From assembly GCF_014191605.1 (NCBI RefSeq), contig NZ_JACHWU010000001.1, forward strand, positions 62,001 to 126,000: DNA of 64,000 nucleotides. Reading direction: 5' to 3'. Origin of the DNA: Prauserella isguenensis (GTDB taxonomy: Bacteria > Actinomycetota > Actinomycetes > Mycobacteriales > Pseudonocardiaceae). The notes beneath the pieces were generated by a model that worked only from the letters and a program-made list of their open reading frames with translations, was not told the DNA's origin and did no database searches. Positions 1-21,794 of the stretch are shown here, piece after piece; within the stretch, counting starts at the first letter, position 1, and every line of letters begins with the position of its first letter. A program made the translations under genes and the position numbers.

Positions 1-533
1 GGCTCGTCGGCCAGGTACCCGAACGACGGGTTGTCGTATCGCGGGTCGGGCAGGGCGTCCCGGAACAGGTGGCTGAGCACGGGAACGACCACGACCACCA
101 CGCCACCGGTGACGAGCAGCGACCGCGTGCTCAGAAACACGAGCGGGATCGCGAACAGGAACAACACGGCGTAGAACGGCAGGATCACCGCGGCGATGCC
201 ACTGTCGGTGTAGCCGAGCGCCAACCCCAGCAGGCCCACCGCCAGAGCGCGCGCGACCAGCGAGGCCGTGACAGGCCGCCACCGCTCGCGGGAGACCTGC
301 TCCCGGCGGGTGGTGAAAGCGATGCCGACACCGGCCAGCACCGCGAAGGTCGCGGCCGACCGGCCGGACACGATCGAATACCACCAGGCCGGGTCCCCGT
401 CGCTGCCAGCGACGTACAGCGCGTGCACCGCCATCATGCCCAGCACGGCGATACCCCGGGTCGCGTCGACACCGACCAAGCGGGTCGCCGACGTGGCCGG
501 CGCCGCGCGGGGCGAGCGGGTTCGAATACCCAT
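1..533 (-). CDS. DUF1624/DUF418-type membrane protein, N-terminal part (cut by window edge)
   Basis: The open frame begins with ATG at 533 and runs off the left edge, so about 177 codons are visible. The early motif RLVGVDATRGIAVLGMMAVHAL is typical of DUF418 and heparan-alpha-glucosaminide N-acetyltransferase-like (DUF1624) membrane proteins. Several hydrophobic segments follow, including one near GLLGLALGYTDSGIAAVILPF. Only 5 bp separate its ATG from the stop of the upstream amidinohydrolase gene, so it is probably the last visible gene of the operon that starts at 6110. Family assignment is by motif. Substrate and function are unknown and the C-terminus cannot be assessed. Confidence 0.75.
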   Translation of the reverse strand, partial: MGIRTRSPRAAPATSATRLVGVDATRGIAVLGMMAVHALYVAGSDGDPAWWYSIVSGRSAATFAVLAGVGIAFTTRREQVSRERWRPVTASLVARALAVGLLGLALGYTDSGIAAVILPFYAVLFLFAIPLVFLSTRSLLVTGGVVVVVVPVLSHLFRDALPDPRYDNPSFGYLADE

Positions 534-538
534 GAGTC

Positions 539-1327
539 TCACTCGAGTGTCAGCGCCGTGCAGCGAATCCCACCGCCACCCTTGGCCAGTTCCGTGGTCG
601 GCAACTCGACGACCCTGAGCCCACGGTTCCGGAGCGTGGCGGCGAGCCGCGGCGCGTCCCGCGTCATGGTGACGGTGTCGCCGTCGCTGACGAGGTTGAG
701 TGCGAAGCGCTCGGCCTCGGCGCGGGACACCTCGACGAGCTCGAGTCCCAGCCGCTCGATGCGCTGCCGACTCGGCCGGTCCAGCGCCTCGGGGCACCAC
801 GCGAGCGTGTGCGGGTTGCCGATGACGGCCACGGCCAGGTCGAGGTCGTACCAGCGGCGGTCGACCGTGCGCAGCGGCACAACATCGTACCCGAGCCGCT
901 CACCGAGGAAATCGTGCATCCGCGGGTCCGTCCGCCAGCCGGACCCTGCGAGCAGGATGTCGCCGCACGGCAACGCATCGCCCTGGCCGCTGAACGCGTA
1001 CGGCGCTTCGATCACCTCGTAGCCGCGACGTTCGAGCCACCTGCGGTAGTGCTCCGTCTCGTTCGCCCGTGCCGCGGGCGGGTGCCCGAGCACGGCACGG
1101 CCACGGCGCACGAGTGCCGCGTTGGCGGTGAACACCATGTCGGGGCAACCCGGTTCCGAGGGCATCCGCTCCACCGTGCGGCCCGCTCTGCGGTGGGCCT
1201 CGATGATCGCGTCGTGCTCGGCGACCGCCGCGCCGGTGTCCGGCTGGTCCTCCGTGTCCATGTACGGGTTGATCTCGTAGTCGATGCGGAAGTGCTCGGC
1301 GTCCGAGACCATCAGATGCGTATTCAC
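539..1327 (-). CDS. DDAH-family amidinohydrolase (dimethylargininase-like), possibly lacking the catalytic His
   Basis: This is a 262-aa protein of the amidinotransferase/dimethylarginine dimethylaminohydrolase fold. Support comes from the N-terminal PDMVFTANAALV segment and the C-terminal glycine-rich GGGGIRCTALTLE, whose Cys (about residue 257) is the expected nucleophile. The start is GTG at 1327, with GGAGG 5-10 nt upstream and a 4-bp GTGA overlap with the stop of the preceding gene, so the two are probably translationally coupled. In relatives I know, the central motif reads His-Leu-Asp (the catalytic His). Here it reads WYDLDLAVAV, with Asp in that place. The enzyme may therefore use a modified mechanism, act on a different guanidino substrate, or be inactive. 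Its co-operonic partners suggest that it modifies an arginine-like building block or product. Confidence 0.8.
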   Translation of the reverse strand: MNTHLMVSDAEHFRIDYEINPYMDTEDQPDTGAAVAEHDAIIEAHRRAGRTVERMPSEPGCPDMVFTANAALVRRGRAVLGHPPAARANETEHYRRWLERRGYEVIEAPYAFSGQGDALPCGDILLAGSGWRTDPRMHDFLGERLGYDVVPLRTVDRRWYDLDLAVAVIGNPHTLAWCPEALDRPSRQRIERLGLELVEVSRAEAERFALNLVSDGDTVTMTRDAPRLAATLRNRGLRVVELPTTELAKGGGGIRCTALTLE

Positions 1328-2040
1328 CCGTTTCCTCCGGTTACGCGTCGGTTCAGCAGTTGTTCGATCAGGTCGTCGGCGAGGTCCATCGCCGTGCTTC
1401 CCGGCCAGGCGACACCTGCGTCGGCGTACCACTCGGGCGGAGCCTCCGGGTGTGGGCCGACCACCCCGACACGGCCCGCACCGAAGTCCGTGACCAGGGC
1501 GGCGATCTGCCGGTTGGGATAGCGGGCGAGGATCGTGACTCCTCGGTGCCCGCCGTCGTCACCGGACGGATACGTGAGCTGGAAAACGGGGCCATCCTGG
1601 AAGAACACGCCGCGCGTGCGGTGGCCCCACTGGACGTCGACGATCGTGTCCCCGGAGGTCGTCACGGTCGCTCCGGGGGTGGCGATGTACTGGTCGGTGT
1701 CTCCGGGCAGTAACGCGAAACCCGGCGTGGCGCCGGCGAGATAACCCCCGAGACAGAACCCGAGGTAGTTCCCGCCTGCTCGGACGTAGGAGCGGATCCG
1801 CTCGCGGTGTTTCTTCATCACGCGGTAGCCGTGACGCAGGGTTCCTCCGCCCGGCTGGGCGTACAGCGTGGCGGCGGCCAGCACGTCGTCACGCAGCGAC
1901 AGTCCCTCGCGAGGTCCGACGAAGCGGACGTCGAACCCGTGGCGGTTCCGGGCCAGCACCTCGGCGACCGCCTCCGAGCATCCCGCAGGCCGGCTCGCAG
2001 GCCCGCGATACACCAACGCGAGGGGCTGCGCGGTCATCAT
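1324..2040 (-). CDS. BPL_N / class I glutamine amidotransferase-like domain protein
   Basis: This 238-aa cytoplasmic protein resembles the N-terminal domain of eukaryotic-type biotin protein ligase, a class I glutamine amidotransferase-like fold. The nucleophile elbow GFCLGGYLAG (about residues 94-103) keeps the Cys. A late segment, VVGPHPEAP, supplies the His expected near the end of this fold. Its ATG overlaps the stop of the NRPS-like gene by 4 bp (ATGA), and its own stop overlaps the next start (GTGA). Stand-alone BPL_N proteins are poorly characterised. Glutamine hydrolysis, peptide hydrolysis and a non-catalytic role are all possible. The coupling to an NRPS-like enzyme argues for a role in the same pathway. 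Confidence 0.75.
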   Translation of the reverse strand: MMTAQPLALVYRGPASRPAGCSEAVAEVLARNRHGFDVRFVGPREGLSLRDDVLAAATLYAQPGGGTLRHGYRVMKKHRERIRSYVRAGGNYLGFCLGGYLAGATPGFALLPGDTDQYIATPGATVTTSGDTIVDVQWGHRTRGVFFQDGPVFQLTYPSGDDGGHRGVTILARYPNRQIAALVTDFGAGRVGVVGPHPEAPPEWYADAGVAWPGSTAMDLADDLIEQLLNRRVTGGNG

Positions 2041-5000
2041 GCGTCCTTGACAGGCAGCGGGTCACTCTGAGCCGGGATTCCGATCCATCGGTTGAGGCGT
2101 GTGAGCTGCTCGCCCTTCATCACCAGTGACAGCGGACCGAGTGCCGCTCCGTCCTCGACGGTGGCGTCGTAGAGCACGACGGAGCGTTCGCCGACACTCG
2201 CGCCCGCGCCGATCCGCACGTGCGACATCTTCATCACGCGGTCCTCGAACAGGTGCGTCTGCAACGATGCGCCGCGGCCGACGGTCGCCCCGCGGCCGAC
2301 GTGCACCAGGTCGAACTCGGTGAGATAAGTCGTGCCCAGCCAGGCGCCCCATCCGATCCGCGCACCCAGCAGCCGCAGCGCGGGCGGCAGCCAGGGGGTG
2401 CCTGTCAGCACCCCGAGCAGTGCCGGCACGGCAGCCGCCTCGTACAGCCCGGTGACGAGTTCGGTGCGGCGCACGAAACGGCTCCACAGCGGTTCCCGCC
2501 GCGGCCGGTACCGGCCGACGACGGCCCATTTGGCCAGCACCACCGTCAGGTACACGGCCAGCGACCCCGCGACGAACACGAACGGCGTGAGTGCCGCCGT
2601 GGCCAGCGTGCCGGTCGTGCTCGCGACTTCGGAGAGGGTCAGCAACACGAGATACAGCGAGACCGCGAGGATCGATGCGGGTGCGGTGACCCGAACGAAC
2701 TCGATCGCCAGCCGTTCGGCGATCCGCCGTTTGGGCGGCCGGAACGTCTCACGTTCGGGATAGTCGCCGCTGTCCTGCCGTCGTGGCAGGTTGATCGCCG
2801 GTGCACCCAGCCACGACGAACCCTCGGGCACGCCGGAACGGGGCGGGACGGTGAGCACACCGATCAGCGATCCCGAGCCGGTATGGGTGCCCGCCGGCAC
2901 GAACGCTGCGTTGCCGATGAACGACCGCCGCCCCACCTCGGTCGGGGCGAAGTTCAGATATCCCCGGTGGAAGGTGGCCGCGCCGACCGACGCCATGTCG
3001 GCCACGAAACTCCCGTCCCGCAGGACCAGCAGTTCGGGATCGACGTGCGCGACGGTGGACACCTCGGCCCCGCGGCCGACCCTCGCTCCCAGAGCACGCA
3101 ACCACGGCACCGTGTACAGCGTCGAGTACAGCGAGTTGGTCAGAGTCAGGCTCATCTCCAACAGCGAGTCGGCCATCCATTTGCGGATACCCAGCGACGA
3201 ACGCGCCGGATGTATCCCCAGAGGGATCCGTGGCAACACGATGGGACGCAGCAACGCCACGAGCACGCACACGGTCACGACGAACACCGGTCCCGTGAAA
3301 GCGGCCGCGATCAGGCCGGCGATGACCCCGCCGAGCAACAGCACGGTCCAGACCAGCACGATCGCGGGCGTCACCATCGCGATCATCGTCAGTTCGAGCA
3401 TCGCCAGGCCGGCCGCGCTGCGGGCCAACGCCCAACGGCTCCAGCCGGCCACCGCGGGCAGCTCCTCGATCGTGGACACCACCGGGTCCGGCTCGATGAG
3501 GGGCCTCGCGGGCGAACCGCCCCACCACCGGCCCTCCGGCACGTGCTGGTTCCGCGTCAGCACCGTGTGCTCGGCGACGCCGCCGTAATCGCGCACCCGC
3601 ACGCCCGGTTCGAGTACCGCCGAGGCTCCGACGAACGACTCCTCGCCCACGCTGACCGGGGCGACGACGACCCATTCGTGTTCGACGATCCAGGGCCGCA
3701 GCGCCGCGCCGTACCCGACCGTGGCGTCGTCGGCGATCGACAACATCGACGGCAGGGACACCATTCCGGTGCCCAGATGGGTGCGGCGGCCGATCTGCGC
3801 ACCGAGCAGTCGCAGGTACGGCCCCATCAGCGGGGACCCGCTGAGGACCGGCAGCGGCGCGATCGTCAGCACCACGTCCAGCGCCCACAACCGCAGATAC
3901 GTCCAGCCCCACAGCCGGTAACGACCCGGCCTGATCCGGGCCGACAGCAGCCGCACCAGCAGTGGTGGCAACAGCCAGCGCATCGTGACGTACGAGGCGA
4001 GGGCGGCCAGTGCGAGTGGGCCGAGCGCCGCCGACACGGCGACCGCGCCGTCGAAGGAGGCGTAGACCAACGCCAACGGCAATGCCCCCAGCGCGATCAG
4101 CACCAGCAGGAACGCCGCCTGCGCGAGCCCGACCGGGATCCGGAGCAGGGTCGCAGCGCGACGCCGCCCGCGGCGCACCGGCCCCGGGCCTGCCGCCACA
4201 GCGGCCACCGTCGTCCCCGGCGCGCGCGGCGTCCCGAGGTGGTGCGCGAGGGCACGGATCGACGGGTACGTGTACAGGTCACGCACCGCGGGGCCGTCGC
4301 CGACGCCTTGCTCCCTCAGCAACGATACGGTTCGTGCCGCCAGCAGCGAATGTCCGCCCAGGTCGGCGAAGAAGTCGGCGTCCGTCGACAGCTGCTCGAC
4401 CGGGACGCCCAACGCCTCTGACCACACCGCAGCGACCTGCCGTTCGAGTTCGGTGGTGGGCGCGACGGTCGCGTGTCCCCCGGCCCGGAGCCTCGTACCG
4501 CCGGGTGGCGGGAGACTGGGACGGTCGATCTTGCCGCTCGGCATCGTCGGCAGCGCGGCGAGCACGTCCAGCGACGCCGGGACCATGTAGTCCGGCAGCC
4601 GGTTCTGCAGTGCGTGCCGCAACCGGGCCGCCAGCTCCGGTGACGCACCGTTCTCGCCGCTGCCCCGCCGCAGTGTCACGTAGGCCGCGAGCTCCGCCGT
4701 ACCGTTGACCGACAACGCCACGGCGGCGGCCGCCACCTCCGGATCCTCCAGCAACAGGCTTTCGACCTCGCCGAGATCTACCCGGTGTCCGCGCACCTTC
4801 ACCTCGGCGTCCGCCCGGCCGAGGTACTCGACCTCGCCGTCCGGGGTGAACCGTCCCAGGTCTCCGGTGCGGTACAGCCGGCCTCCCGCGGGTGCCAGCT
4901 CGTGCGGTACGAACCGTTCCGCCGTCAGCTCCGGCATGCCCACGTATCCGGTGGCCACGCCCGGCCCGCCGATACAGATCTCGCCGACCACACCGTGCGG

Positions 5001-18796: not shown

Positions 18797-21220
18797 CTAC
18801 AGCTTCACCATCGGCACGCTGCCGATCAGCATCAGCCGTACCGTGCCGGCCGTGCCGAAGTCGATCGTCGCCGTCGCACGCGGACCGGTGCCGTCCGTCG
18901 ACACGACCGTGCCGAGTCCGTACTTGTCGTGGTTCACACGGTCACCGGCGTCGAGCTTGAGCGCGACCGTGTCCTTCCAGTCGTTCCTCGCGCCCGTGAA
19001 CCCGGTCGTCCGCATGCCGCCGGAGGCGAGCCGGGACTGCGCCGAATCCGAGCCGGTCCCCGGTCGCCCGCCCCATGTCGTGGCGGCCCGCGGCGAACCA
19101 CCGCCGCCTCCCGAGGAAGGGGCCTCGCGCCGCCAGTCGAGCAACTCGGCGGGGATCTCGTCGAGGAACCGGGAGGCGGGGTTGGCTGCGGGTTGACCCC
19201 ACTGCGTCCGGACCAACGCCCGTGAGACGTACAGCCGCTCGCGCGCCCGCGTGATCGCGACGTACGCGAGCCTGCGCTCCTCGGCCAGCTCCTTCGGCTC
19301 GCCGAGCGCGCGCAGGTGCGGGAAGACGCCGTCCTCCCAGCCGGTGCCGAACACGACCGGGTATTCGAGGCCCTTCGCGGTGTGCACGGTCATCAGGGTG
19401 ACCACGCCCGCGTCGTCGGCATCCTCCTCGGCGTCACCGCCGTCCGACTCGGGGATCGAGTCCGCGTCGGCCACCAGCGACACCCGTTCCAGGAACGCGG
19501 GCAGCGATCCCGGCTCCGGGACACCCGCGTCCGGCTCCTCCTCGGCGTCGGTCTCCGGGGCGAGCGCGGCCGCCTCTGCAGCCGACTCGGTGAATTCACG
19601 CGCGACCGTGACGAGCTCGTCGAGGTTCTCCAGCCGTGAGGCGTCCTGCGGATCGTCGGAAGCGTCCAATTCGGCGCGATACCCCGTGCGGTCGAGCACC
19701 GCCTCGAGGATGTCGGCGACCTCGACACCGGAGTCGGCCAGCTCGTACAGGCCGTCCAGTAGTTCCACGAATGCCGTGATCGCCTTCCGCGAACGCGGGT
19801 TGAGCATCGGAACCTTGTCGGCGACCGCGTCCCGCAGCGCCGAGACGAACGAGATCCGCTCCCGCTCGGCGTGCGTGGCCACGCAGGCCTCGGCCCGGTC
19901 GCCGATGCCGCGCTTGGGCACGTTCAGGATGCGCCGCAGGCTGACGGTGTCGTCCGGATTCGCCAGCACCCGCAGGTACGCCAGCGCATCGCGGACCTCC
20001 TTGCGCTCGTAGAACCGGACCCCACCGACCACGCGATACGGCAGGCCGAGCCGGATGAAGATCTCCTCGAACACCCGGGACTGGTTGTTGGTGCGGTAGA
20101 ACACCGCGACGTCCGAGTACTTCGCCACACCCTGGTCGACCAGATCGTCGATCTCACCGGCGACGAACGCGGCCTCGTCGTGCTCGTTGTCGGCGACGTA
20201 GCCGACGACCTTCTCGCCGTCGCCCTCGGACGTCCACAGGCGCTTGTCCCTGCGGTCCGGGTTCCGCGCGATCACGGAGTTCGCCGCCGACAGGATCGTC
20301 TGCGTCGACCGGTAGTTCTGCTCGAGGAGGATCGTGCGGGCGTTCGGGAAGTCCCGTTCGAATTCCTCGATGTTGCGGATCGTCGCGCCGCGGAAGGCGT
20401 AGATCGACTGGTCGGCGTCACCGACGACGCACAGCTCCGCGGGCTCGACGCCGGACTCGGTCGGCTCGGTGCCGACGAGCTCGCGCACCAGCGTGTACTG
20501 CGCGTGGTTGGTGTCCTGGTACTCGTCGACCAGCACGTGGCGGAACCGCCGCCGGTAGTACTCCGCGACGTCGGGGAACACCTGGAACAGCTCGACGGTC
20601 CGCATGATCAGGTCGTCGAAGTCCATCGCGTTGGCCTGCGAGAGCCTGCGCTGGTATTCGACGTAGACCTCGGCGGCCCTGCGCTCGAAGTCGTTGGTCG
20701 CGTGCGACCCCGCGGACTCGGAGTCGATCAACTCGTTCTTCAGGTTCGAGATATGGGCGGCCAGCGCGCGAGGCTGGTACCGCTTCGAATCGAGGTCCAG
20801 GTCGCGGGCCACGAGCGTCAACAGCCTGCGCGCGTCGTCGGCGTCGTAGATGGAGAAGTTCGACGACATCTCGAGGGTCTTCGCCTCGCGCCGCAGCACA
20901 CGCACGCACATCGAGTGGAACGTCGACATCCACATCGCACCCGACCGGCGCCCGACCAGCTCGCCGACGCGCTCACGCATCTCGGCGGCCGCCTTGTTGG
21001 TGAACGTGATGGCCATGATCTGCCCGGGGTGCGCTCCACGAGCGCCCAGCAGGTAAGCGATCCTGCGCGTGAGCACCCTGGTCTTACCGGAGCCGGCGCC
21101 GGCGACCACCAGCAGCGGCGTACCCGCGTGCTCCACGGCGGCGCGCTGCGCCGGGTTCAGGTCGCCTGTCAGTTCGGCGTGCTCGCCCTGGTCCGGGGGA
21201 AGATCGAAGAGGGTGCTCAT
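18797..21220 (-). CDS. pcrA: ATP-dependent DNA helicase PcrA / UvrD1
   Basis: This 807-aa superfamily 1A 3'-5' helicase acts in nucleotide excision repair and replication-conflict resolution. Motif I is GAGSGKTRVLT, motif II DEYQDTN, motif III QSIYAFRGA, motif IV QNYRST, and motif V TVHTAKGLEYPVVF. The C-terminus (VNHDKYGLGTVV) is the Tudor-like RNA-polymerase-binding fold typical of PcrA/UvrD1. An acidic insertion (EEEPDAG.. to DAEEDADD) lies near residues 570-610. Orientation and position next to chorismate mutase match Rv0949. The start ATG at 21220 (MSTLFDLPP) matches the family. Confidence 0.97.
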   Translation of the reverse strand: MSTLFDLPPDQGEHAELTGDLNPAQRAAVEHAGTPLLVVAGAGSGKTRVLTRRIAYLLGARGAHPGQIMAITFTNKAAAEMRERVGELVGRRSGAMWMSTFHSMCVRVLRREAKTLEMSSNFSIYDADDARRLLTLVARDLDLDSKRYQPRALAAHISNLKNELIDSESAGSHATNDFERRAAEVYVEYQRRLSQANAMDFDDLIMRTVELFQVFPDVAEYYRRRFRHVLVDEYQDTNHAQYTLVRELVGTEPTESGVEPAELCVVGDADQSIYAFRGATIRNIEEFERDFPNARTILLEQNYRSTQTILSAANSVIARNPDRRDKRLWTSEGDGEKVVGYVADNEHDEAAFVAGEIDDLVDQGVAKYSDVAVFYRTNNQSRVFEEIFIRLGLPYRVVGGVRFYERKEVRDALAYLRVLANPDDTVSLRRILNVPKRGIGDRAEACVATHAERERISFVSALRDAVADKVPMLNPRSRKAITAFVELLDGLYELADSGVEVADILEAVLDRTGYRAELDASDDPQDASRLENLDELVTVAREFTESAAEAAALAPETDAEEEPDAGVPEPGSLPAFLERVSLVADADSIPESDGGDAEEDADDAGVVTLMTVHTAKGLEYPVVFGTGWEDGVFPHLRALGEPKELAEERRLAYVAITRARERLYVSRALVRTQWGQPAANPASRFLDEIPAELLDWRREAPSSGGGGGSPRAATTWGGRPGTGSDSAQSRLASGGMRTTGFTGARNDWKDTVALKLDAGDRVNHDKYGLGTVVSTDGTGPRATATIDFGTAGTVRLMLIGSVPMVKL

Positions 21221-21245
21221 TGTGACTTCACGCTACCTCGCGCCC

Positions 21246-21271
21246 CTGACACGGCCGGAATGTGCCATACT
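21246..21271 (+). promoter_or_regulatory. Promoter for the chorismate mutase leader (extended -10)
   Basis: TGCCATACT (extended -10, CATACT at 21266-21271) lies 7 nt before a GTG at 21278, which fits a leaderless transcript whose first codon is at or next to the start site. A CTGACA box at 21246-21251 could act as a weak -35 with a short 14-bp spacer. Confidence 0.5.
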
Positions 21272-21277
21272 CGCGCC

Positions 21278-21343
21278 GTGGTCGACGCGACGTGCCGATT
21301 TTTCTACGGGATCCGGACTCCGGCTCCCGTGATCGCGTGCTGA
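21278..21343 (+). CDS. Putative Phe/Tyr leader peptide (21 aa) of a transcription attenuator
   Basis: GTG at 21278 opens a 21-codon frame, MVDATCRFFYGIRTPAPVIAC, ended by TGA at 21341-21343. It contains consecutive Phe-Phe-Tyr codons (21299-21307) directly before an RNA hairpin. The frame lies between a promoter-like site and the chorismate mutase gene and is followed by mutually exclusive hairpins (see the attenuator entry). It appears leaderless. The peptide itself probably has no function. Translation speed through FFY would report charged tRNA-Phe/Tyr supply. Confidence 0.6.
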   Translation: MVDATCRFFYGIRTPAPVIAC

Positions 21344-21386
21344 CCAGCCATCACCTCAAGCCCCGGAGTCCTCGGACCCGGGGCTT
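21306..21386 (+). promoter_or_regulatory. Putative ribosome-mediated attenuator upstream of chorismate mutase
   Basis: Region 1:2 hairpin: ACGGGA (21306-21311) pairs with TCCCGT (21325-21330), starting inside the Tyr codon. Region 2 (GGACTCCGG, 21315-21323) is perfectly complementary to region 3 (CCGGAGTCC, 21363-21371), forming a 9-bp antiterminator. Region 3:4 terminator: AAGCCCCGG (21358-21366) pairs with CCGGGGCTT (21378-21386), with an inner GTCC-TC-GGAC stem. Stalling at FFY would cover region 1 and favour 2:3 (read-through). Fast translation would favour 1:2 and 3:4 (termination). All pairings are read directly from the sequence. Regulation is inferred. Confidence 0.6.
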
Positions 21387-21440
21387 TCGTCGGCTCGGGG
21401 GTCCGGGTCCGGAGCCACGCCGACACGACCGGAGGGTCAC

Positions 21441-21794
21441 ATGAACGCCCAGACTCACGACGATTCCCAGGCCACCGACGTCCGGTCGGCGGAGGTGCCG
21501 GCCGCCGACACGCAGGCCGCCGACACCCAGGCCGACGAGGCACCGGCCGCCGAGACGGCGATCGACGACCTGCGTCAGGAGATCGACTGGCTCGACGCCG
21601 AGATCCTGCGCCTGATCAAACGTCGCGCCGAGGTCTCGCGGACGATCGGCGCCGCGCGGATGGCCGCGGGCGGTCCGCGCATCGTCTACAACCGTGAGAT
21701 GGACGTGCTCGCCCGGTACCGCGAGCTCGGCCCCGAGGGCAGGCAACTCGCGCTCGCACTGCTGAACCTCGGCCGCGGACGCCTCGGACACTGA
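21441..21794 (+). CDS. Chorismate mutase, AroQ class (Rv0948c-like)
   Basis: This 117-aa intracellular chorismate mutase converts chorismate to prephenate for Phe and Tyr synthesis. The AroQ helical core occupies about residues 40-117, with LRQEIDWLDAEILRLIKRRAEVSRTIGAARM carrying the conserved Arg/Lys substrate contacts. The ending LLNLGRGRLGH resembles the mycobacterial enzyme, which is activated by complex formation with DAHP synthase. The first ~38 residues are an Ala/Asp/Thr-rich extension. SD GGAGG lies 6-10 nt before ATG 21441. It is divergent from pcrA, as in M. tuberculosis. The stop codon lies in a tandem 14-15-bp repeat. Confidence 0.93.
   Translation: MNAQTHDDSQATDVRSAEVPAADTQAADTQADEAPAAETAIDDLRQEIDWLDAEILRLIKRRAEVSRTIGAARMAAGGPRIVYNREMDVLARYRELGPEGRQLALALLNLGRGRLGH

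Follow-up and report, generated by a model that had tools for sequence, protein, structure and literature searches.

A Phe/Tyr-codon leader with competing RNA hairpins, a candidate attenuator, upstream of a stand-alone chorismate mutase gene in Prauserella isguenensis and other actinobacteria

The window analysed in this work is a 64,000-nt stretch of the Prauserella isguenensis genome (contig NZ_JACHWU010000001.1, positions 62,001 to 126,000). Its plus strand encodes at 21441-21794 a chorismate mutase of the AroQ type (csm), identified by PF01817 (E 1.5e-11), NF005894 (E 3.9e-36) and the Rv0948c structures (E 4.8e-30), with a Shine-Dalgarno-like GGAGGG at 21431-21436. This gene is the sole PF01817 match in its own genome, and the best-ranked named relatives by csm are P. 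aidingensis, P. alba and P. halophila (81-87% identity over the best segment). A pcrA/uvrD helicase gene lies on the minus strand at 18797-21220, divergent from csm; a pcrA match was also present in 30 of the 40 stretches fetched from the order. The 220 bases between the two genes carry an extended -10, a short GTG frame and a series of nested and competing hairpins. Because pcrA/uvrD points away, the frame has no same-strand gene 5' of it and the hairpin at 21358-21386 cannot belong to an upstream gene as its terminator.

The GTG frame is on the csm strand (GTG 21278 to TGA 21343), with no gene between it and csm, and would encode a 21-codon leader peptide, VVDATCRFFYGIRTPAPVIAC, whose putative regulatory codons Phe-Phe-Tyr (TTT TTC TAC) occupy 21299-21307. 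Directly upstream, on the same strand, the extended -10 TGC-CATACT (21263-21271) ends 6 nt before the GTG. The preliminary description of this locus had proposed such a frame behind an extended -10, with a leaderless start; the frame and its Phe-Phe-Tyr codons are borne out, and the leaderless start is supported by the related loci, where an extended -10 is found 4-9 nt 5' of the leader start in 109/136 cases, compared to 20/6800 random positions. The gap is 6 nt in 84 of these 109 loci, 7 nt in 24 and 8 nt in one. From this spacing the transcription start is predicted at or next to GTG 21278, which would make the mRNA leaderless. The choice of GTG as the start codon rests on the promoter position, since the frame stays open further upstream: an in-frame ATG is found at 21260, in the promoter region just before the -10, and a mechanical open frame of 490 codons (19871-21343, plus strand), antisense to pcrA, shares the stop codon of the leader. 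This long frame is probably a by-product of the high G+C content. A simple sigma-70/terminator scan of the element returned neither a promoter nor a terminator and no -35 match, and NCBIfam leader-peptide models matched none of four typed leader peptides. Chance is excluded by conservation across loci, for example of the extended -10 spacing, and not by the single sequence.

At the RNA level (all stems on the plus strand), a 115-nt stretch of the element folds better than 200/200 shuffles (z -3.5). The outer stem P1 joins the start-codon region (21279-21290) to the stop-codon region (3' strand 21333-21346, of which 21333-21338 and 21341-21346 are paired; the stop codon is contained in it). The 1:2 hairpin P2 (21306-21330; 21306-21316 with 21320-21330, -15.5 kcal/mol) begins inside the Tyr codon. 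Region 2 of the putative antiterminator (GGACTCCGG, 21315-21323) is the exact complement of region 3 (CCGGAGTCC, 21363-21371), and region 3 is located inside the 5' arm of the putative terminator hairpin 3:4 (21358-21386, 12 pairs, -23.1 kcal/mol). The 3' arm of 3:4 ends in TT followed by TCGTCGGC, and only TTTCGTCG comes after the last GGGGC. Both the perfect 2:3 pairing and the 3:4 hairpin had been proposed beforehand and were confirmed here. A hairpin with the Phe-Phe-Tyr codons at its base had been proposed as well; it is present, but it is larger than described, with P1 added to it.

To follow the element in other genomes, 80 csm loci, the best-ranked of 151, were chosen solely on the similarity of the csm protein, blind to the upstream region. 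A coding run [F/Y][F/Y]Y was found within 330 bases upstream of csm in 78/80 loci, and most loci of this set share the leader consensus [R/E]FFYG[N/T/I]RTPAPV[I/V]A. In L007 and L072, where it is missing, the T run is shorter by one base, and in L033 the frame shifts after the Tyr codon; the altered frames of these three loci may reflect real decay, a sequencing error or a relaxed allele. The record L018, labelled Rhodococcus rhodnii, looks identical to Kibdelosporangium aridum L016 over 160 aligned bases and differs further upstream, and it may be mislabelled or contaminated.

Covariation of the stems was estimated in a wide set of 84 loci from 11 families, which contains 82, 48, 54 and 68 distinct combinations for P1, P2, 2:3 and 3:4, respectively. 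We compared the pairing energy of each segment with its own partner to that obtained after partners were permuted between loci, a test used because the structural alignment A3 had been fitted to the structure and because the gapped P1 was judged to be misaligned in the MAFFT alignment A1. Own partners paired better than permuted ones for P1 (-13.9 vs. -10.2 kcal/mol), P2 (-19.6 vs. -16.4), 2:3 (-15.0 vs. -12.5) and 3:4 (-23.5 vs. -20.8), and 0/5000 permutations reached the observed value for any of the four; own partners were better in 11/11 families for P1, P2 and 3:4 and in 9/11 families for 2:3. Five control segment pairs in the wide set showed no covariation, the observed value being reached in 363 to 4967 of 5000 permutations. 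For P1 in 44 loci, own segments gave -16.3 kcal/mol against a permuted mean of -13.5, and 0/20000 permutations were as good. In A3 (84 sequences), which was fitted to the structure, both sides had changed at 18/31 pairs with a covariation score of 0.257, as compared to 0.091 after shuffling and at most 0.051 with slid partners; in P2, one pair has changed on both sides in 13 sequences. RNAalifold on A1 recovered P2 and a shifted terminator but not P1, whose pair counts there were weak (55-57% paired).

The 2:3 pairing changes partner sequence from GGACTCCGG:CCGGAGTCC in the family of the window to GGAGTCCGG:CCGGGCTCC in family f15, and one locus of family f8 reads GGTCCGCGG:CCGCGGTCC, with one mismatch. 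Only 4/54 combinations, among them the other f8 locus (L133), are weak (above -10 kcal/mol). Within families, swapped 2:3 partners pair no worse than own partners (-16.6 vs. -15.3 kcal/mol), so the support for 2:3 comes from differences between families; by our reading the lack of a within-family effect is due to the near-invariance of the largest family. We concluded that the 1:2, 2:3 and 3:4 stems are mutually exclusive and covarying. The comparison of orthologues that the preliminary description had suggested as a check thus turned out in its favour, with Phe/Tyr codons kept, compensatory change in all three stems and five negative controls.

We next counted the codons in the leaders, using 139 sequences, of which 136 were kept (L011, L020 and L036 fell outside the start window of the script despite visible frames); two matches, L190 and L191, had been dropped before the counts. 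The 129 leaders that do not precede a DAHP synthase gene have csm visible behind them in 128 cases, and in the remaining locus, L131, the contig stops before a csm is reached. Phe is present in 129/129 of these leaders, Tyr in 127/129 and Trp in 3/129, and the motif F-x-Y-G occurs in 124/129 (exceptions L007, L072, L137, L186 and L189). In these 124 leaders the first and third sensor codons vary synonymously (122 TTT and 2 TTC; 114 TAC and 10 TAT), and the middle one is free: Phe in 102, Tyr in 9, Thr in 5, Ser in 4, Leu in 2, and Arg and Pro in one each. The end-product codons are therefore conserved in orthologues, a conservation which outside the first family is not fully independent, as the element was found there with models containing the Phe/Tyr codons.

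The residues that follow Phe-Phe-Tyr are conserved in the first family, as they would be if the nascent peptide (FFYGxRTPAPV) were an arrest peptide sensing something other than tRNA charging. They do, however, follow changes in P2: replacement of GGG..CCC by GGC..GCC coincides with a change of the peptide from YGxRxPxPV to YGTGSPAAV. Because P2 is nearly palindromic, a third-base change in a Gly codon turns Pro to Ala, so the residues behind Tyr are explained by the RNA and not by the peptide. Five loci of the large-genome group f33 have different tails altogether, e.g., FTYGNRPTGCHGRAA, and Phe and Tyr stay. An arrest peptide is hence highly improbable, and the codons are better read as sensors of tRNA charging.

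Taken with the stems, this makes it very likely in our judgement that csm is controlled by the charging of Phe-tRNA and Tyr-tRNA through ribosome-mediated transcription attenuation on a leaderless mRNA. In the mechanism that we infer, including its direction of response, its kinetic control and termination itself, transcription would begin at GTG 21278 or immediately beside it, with a ribosome starting at the 5' end of the mRNA. With both Phe- and Tyr-tRNA charged, the ribosome would pass Phe-Phe-Tyr and leave at the stop codon; after its release P1 and P2 (1:2) would re-form and lock region 2, region 3 would pair with region 4, and the polymerase would stop at approximately 21390. A ribosome stalled at 21299-21307 would cover the 5' strand of P2 and open P1, allowing regions 2 and 3 to pair while region 4 has yet to be transcribed, and the polymerase would continue into csm. 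P1 and P2 would also form without translation, giving a default-off state. Going by these sequence features, csm is very probably switched on when Phe or Tyr runs short. The preliminary description had already seen the full logic of attenuation in this region, with codons matching the end products of csm, and the covarying stems and a codon content that follows the downstream gene (see below) argue in its favour.

Folding calculations were carried out on the partial transcript without region 4 and on the full RNA. In the partial transcript the 2:3 probability was 0.23 without a ribosome, 0.73-0.84 when a ribosome masked the Phe codons, depending on the footprint assumed, and 0.35-0.84 with the mask at the Tyr codon, depending on the footprint edge. 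In the full RNA at equilibrium the terminator was favoured in every state tested (0.95-0.97). Since the terminator wins at equilibrium once region 4 exists, the switch would have to be kinetic. With the ribosome placed on the stop codon in the calculation, region 2 was left free and the antiterminator probability was 0.97 in the partial transcript; the model therefore requires that the ribosome leave, or block the pairing sterically, by the time region 3 emerges. We infer that P1 and P2 re-form upon release, which may be the reason why P1, joining the start and stop regions, is conserved.

The 3:4 hairpin is GC-rich and stable, but only a short U tract follows it (in the window, 4 of the 8 nt after GGGGC are T) and the consensus scan did not match it as a terminator. 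These two features would suit a leader that acts on translation or on another step after initiation, the position of the ribosome exposing or hiding the csm ribosome-binding site or opening a Rho site with no intrinsic terminator involved; the available part of PMC13236596 mentions mycobacterial cysteine genes that are subject to translation attenuation. Such an action is hard to reconcile with a 3:4 hairpin that ends approximately 45 nt before the Shine-Dalgarno sequence of csm in the window, with an element-to-csm-match distance that varies between loci, and with the number of T in the 8 nt that follow GGGGC, which is 4 or more in 88/139 loci, and we regard it as very unlikely. Some Streptomyces lividans leaders lack a typical U-rich terminator according to the part of PMC8079986 available. 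Transcription attenuation remains our preferred reading.

To estimate how widely the element occurs, a covariance model (R1) was built from 43 sequences and run at a threshold of E 0.01 against 298 genomes of the order. Matches were obtained in 234/298 genomes and 58/76 genera, among which the weak ones may be due to chance. We fetched 40 loci, from 11 families, out of the better-scoring listed matches, leaving the weaker ones aside; all 40 were matched again by the model. The gene 3' of the element was csm in 36/40 loci by tblastn and in three more by reading frame and NCBIfam, and the fortieth (L131) lies at a contig edge. This constant position before csm in 39/40 loci bears on another possibility, that the locus makes a terminated small RNA without attenuating csm: promoter and terminator do enclose a unit of approximately 110 nt, but this unit keeps its place before csm and has the mutually exclusive 2:3 pairing, for which a plain small RNA has no need, and we consider this possibility extremely remote compared with attenuation of csm.

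A second model (R2) matched 141/394 genomes of the class at E 0.001 and 22/198 genomes in the phylum search, where all listed matches below E 1e-5 were within the class. Many matches at E 1e-5 to 1e-3 in the class and phylum searches were taken to be GC hairpins. Of 20 class-search matches fetched, 18 have a leader; the other two, L190 and L191 (E 6e-7 and 1.4e-8), were rejected as chance matches, no leader being present. The five group f33 loci have leaders of the type MLTQTTFLFTYGNRPTGCHGRAA, each followed by csm. A csm gene is present in 22 of 27 genomes that were matched weakly or not at all, and 20 of these loci were scanned. By our reading, nine carry a diverged Phe/Tyr leader, e.g., VTATGTRFVTGFFYGTPATAPGEEV. 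Ten, all of family f8, have no leader visible in a simple scan, and an eleventh (L215) probably has none. The loci without a visible Phe/Tyr leader (L196-L205) belong to genera g39, g54, g57, g70 and g72 of f8, plus one of g27; L198 has kept a terminator-like hairpin and lacks the Phe/Tyr codons. The distribution suggests an old element that was lost or altered in places. In the genome of P. isguenensis itself a second copy was sought with no convincing match (next best E 0.03).

We examined whether the element corresponds to a known system. A search of Rfam 15 with all families, including T-box and Phe_leader (presumably RF01859), gave no match at gathering score in the window, and the best matches within 21200-21450 had E 2.2-3.5, far below the cut-off. 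The pheL leader works by the same 1:2, 2:3 and 3:4 logic as proposed for csm. In the part of PMC11802643 available, pheL of E. coli pheA is likewise a Phe-sensing leader before a gene with chorismate mutase activity. Unlike pheL, the csm element is apparently leaderless, would sense Tyr as well, serves a stand-alone enzyme and is unmatched in Rfam 15. The actinobacterial trp, leu and ilv attenuators, as far as covered in the available parts of PMC1262725, PMC8079986 and PMC13236596, are likewise short and often leaderless, with pathway codons and competing hairpins, but they sense other amino acids.

Literature searches, limited to the best matches and mostly to open-access papers, yielded no leader before a stand-alone chorismate mutase gene, in line with the preliminary description, to which none was known; an earlier report may exist. 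No conserved RNA structure was reported upstream of actinobacterial phenylalanine/tyrosine operons in the accessible part of the survey of Seliverstov et al. (2005) (PMC1262725). The list of leader peptides of S. lividans names no Phe/Tyr leader in the part available, and the word chorismate is absent from the main text (PMC8079986). For Corynebacterium diphtheriae, trp, ilvB and leu leader peptides are given in the accessible part of PMC5784534, and the words chorismate, phenylalanine and tyrosine are absent from the main text of a study of the M. tuberculosis ilvB1 attenuator (2026; PMC13236596). Further Corynebacterium glutamicum papers were available in part (PMC6892785, PMC12125101). The csm element therefore fills a gap reported in the available text of the 2005 survey (PMC1262725), and it provides a covarying RNA, unmatched in Rfam 15, whose model matches most genomes of the order. 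In C. glutamicum, chorismate mutase forms a complex with DAHP synthase and is controlled in this way, according to the part of PMC11802643 available; attenuation would add a gene-level layer to the control of Rv0948c-type chorismate mutases. For producers of aromatic compounds, the element might also offer a practical target.

In family f31 the same element was found before another gene. At seven loci (L180-L185 and L192) it precedes a PRK08673-type DAHP synthase gene; by tblastn, all seven protein matches begin 34-71 nt after the element, and NCBIfam named both proteins submitted. All 7/7 leaders contain Trp (in the forms FWRFYGYRP or FWYGDGP), vs. the 3/129 elsewhere. As the seven loci belong to one family, the recoding to Trp represents one or two events. 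Chorismate mutase commits the pathway to Phe and Tyr alone, and the DAHP synthase step supplies all three aromatic amino acids, Trp included; the codon content of the leaders therefore fits sensing. The f31 family has csm too: PF01817 matches were found in 5/7 genomes searched (11 loci), and a simple scan of these loci with an assumed 1500-base flank detected aromatic-pair frames only in L217 and L220, neither of them like the csm leader. On sequence grounds the csm element appears to be new, widespread in actinobacteria and re-coded when it serves another gene. More tentatively, and with somewhat more doubt than confidence, we suggest one ancestral attenuator module across the class Actinomycetes which moved between chorismate mutase and DAHP synthase, the two branch-controlling enzymes of the aromatic pathway, and was re-coded per gene, Phe-x-Tyr for the former and Phe-Trp-x-Phe-Tyr or Phe-Trp-Tyr for the latter. 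If so, a single stall site in the csm leader would serve to read two tRNAs, with Phe and Tyr fixed and the middle codon free, and the natural leaders with or without Trp would provide a comparative test of attenuator re-targeting.

The closest known system is AroR of C. glutamicum, found upstream of aroF (PMC11802643 and PMC7356990, both available in part, the latter a work in which aroR was replaced; both cite Neshat et al., 2014, as the source). According to these partial texts, AroR is likewise an actinobacterial leader with Phe/Tyr codons that attenuates an aromatic pathway gene by means of the ribosome; it controls the DAHP synthase gene aroF, whereas the element in the window precedes csm, a comparison made with AroR by description and not by full sequence. 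The best explanation of the csm element is that it works like pheL and trpL and is closest to AroR. We scanned AroFGH-type DAHP synthase loci from relatives, with that of P. isguenensis included, using 29 of 30 loci (L258, a partial match, was left out). By our reading 17 loci have no leader in view, L255 is doubtful, and 11 have comparable leaders, all with Trp. P. isguenensis carries before its own AroFGH-type DAHP synthase gene an AroR-like leader, MQRYYWFTWPARSGPVGVNLR (L229:1162-1302; G000:C2, upstream of 634165), and since this leader is separate, the csm element is not AroR. The MQRYYWFTWPARSGPVGVNLR leader contains all three aromatic amino acids, and its hairpins are similar in layout to those of the csm leader.
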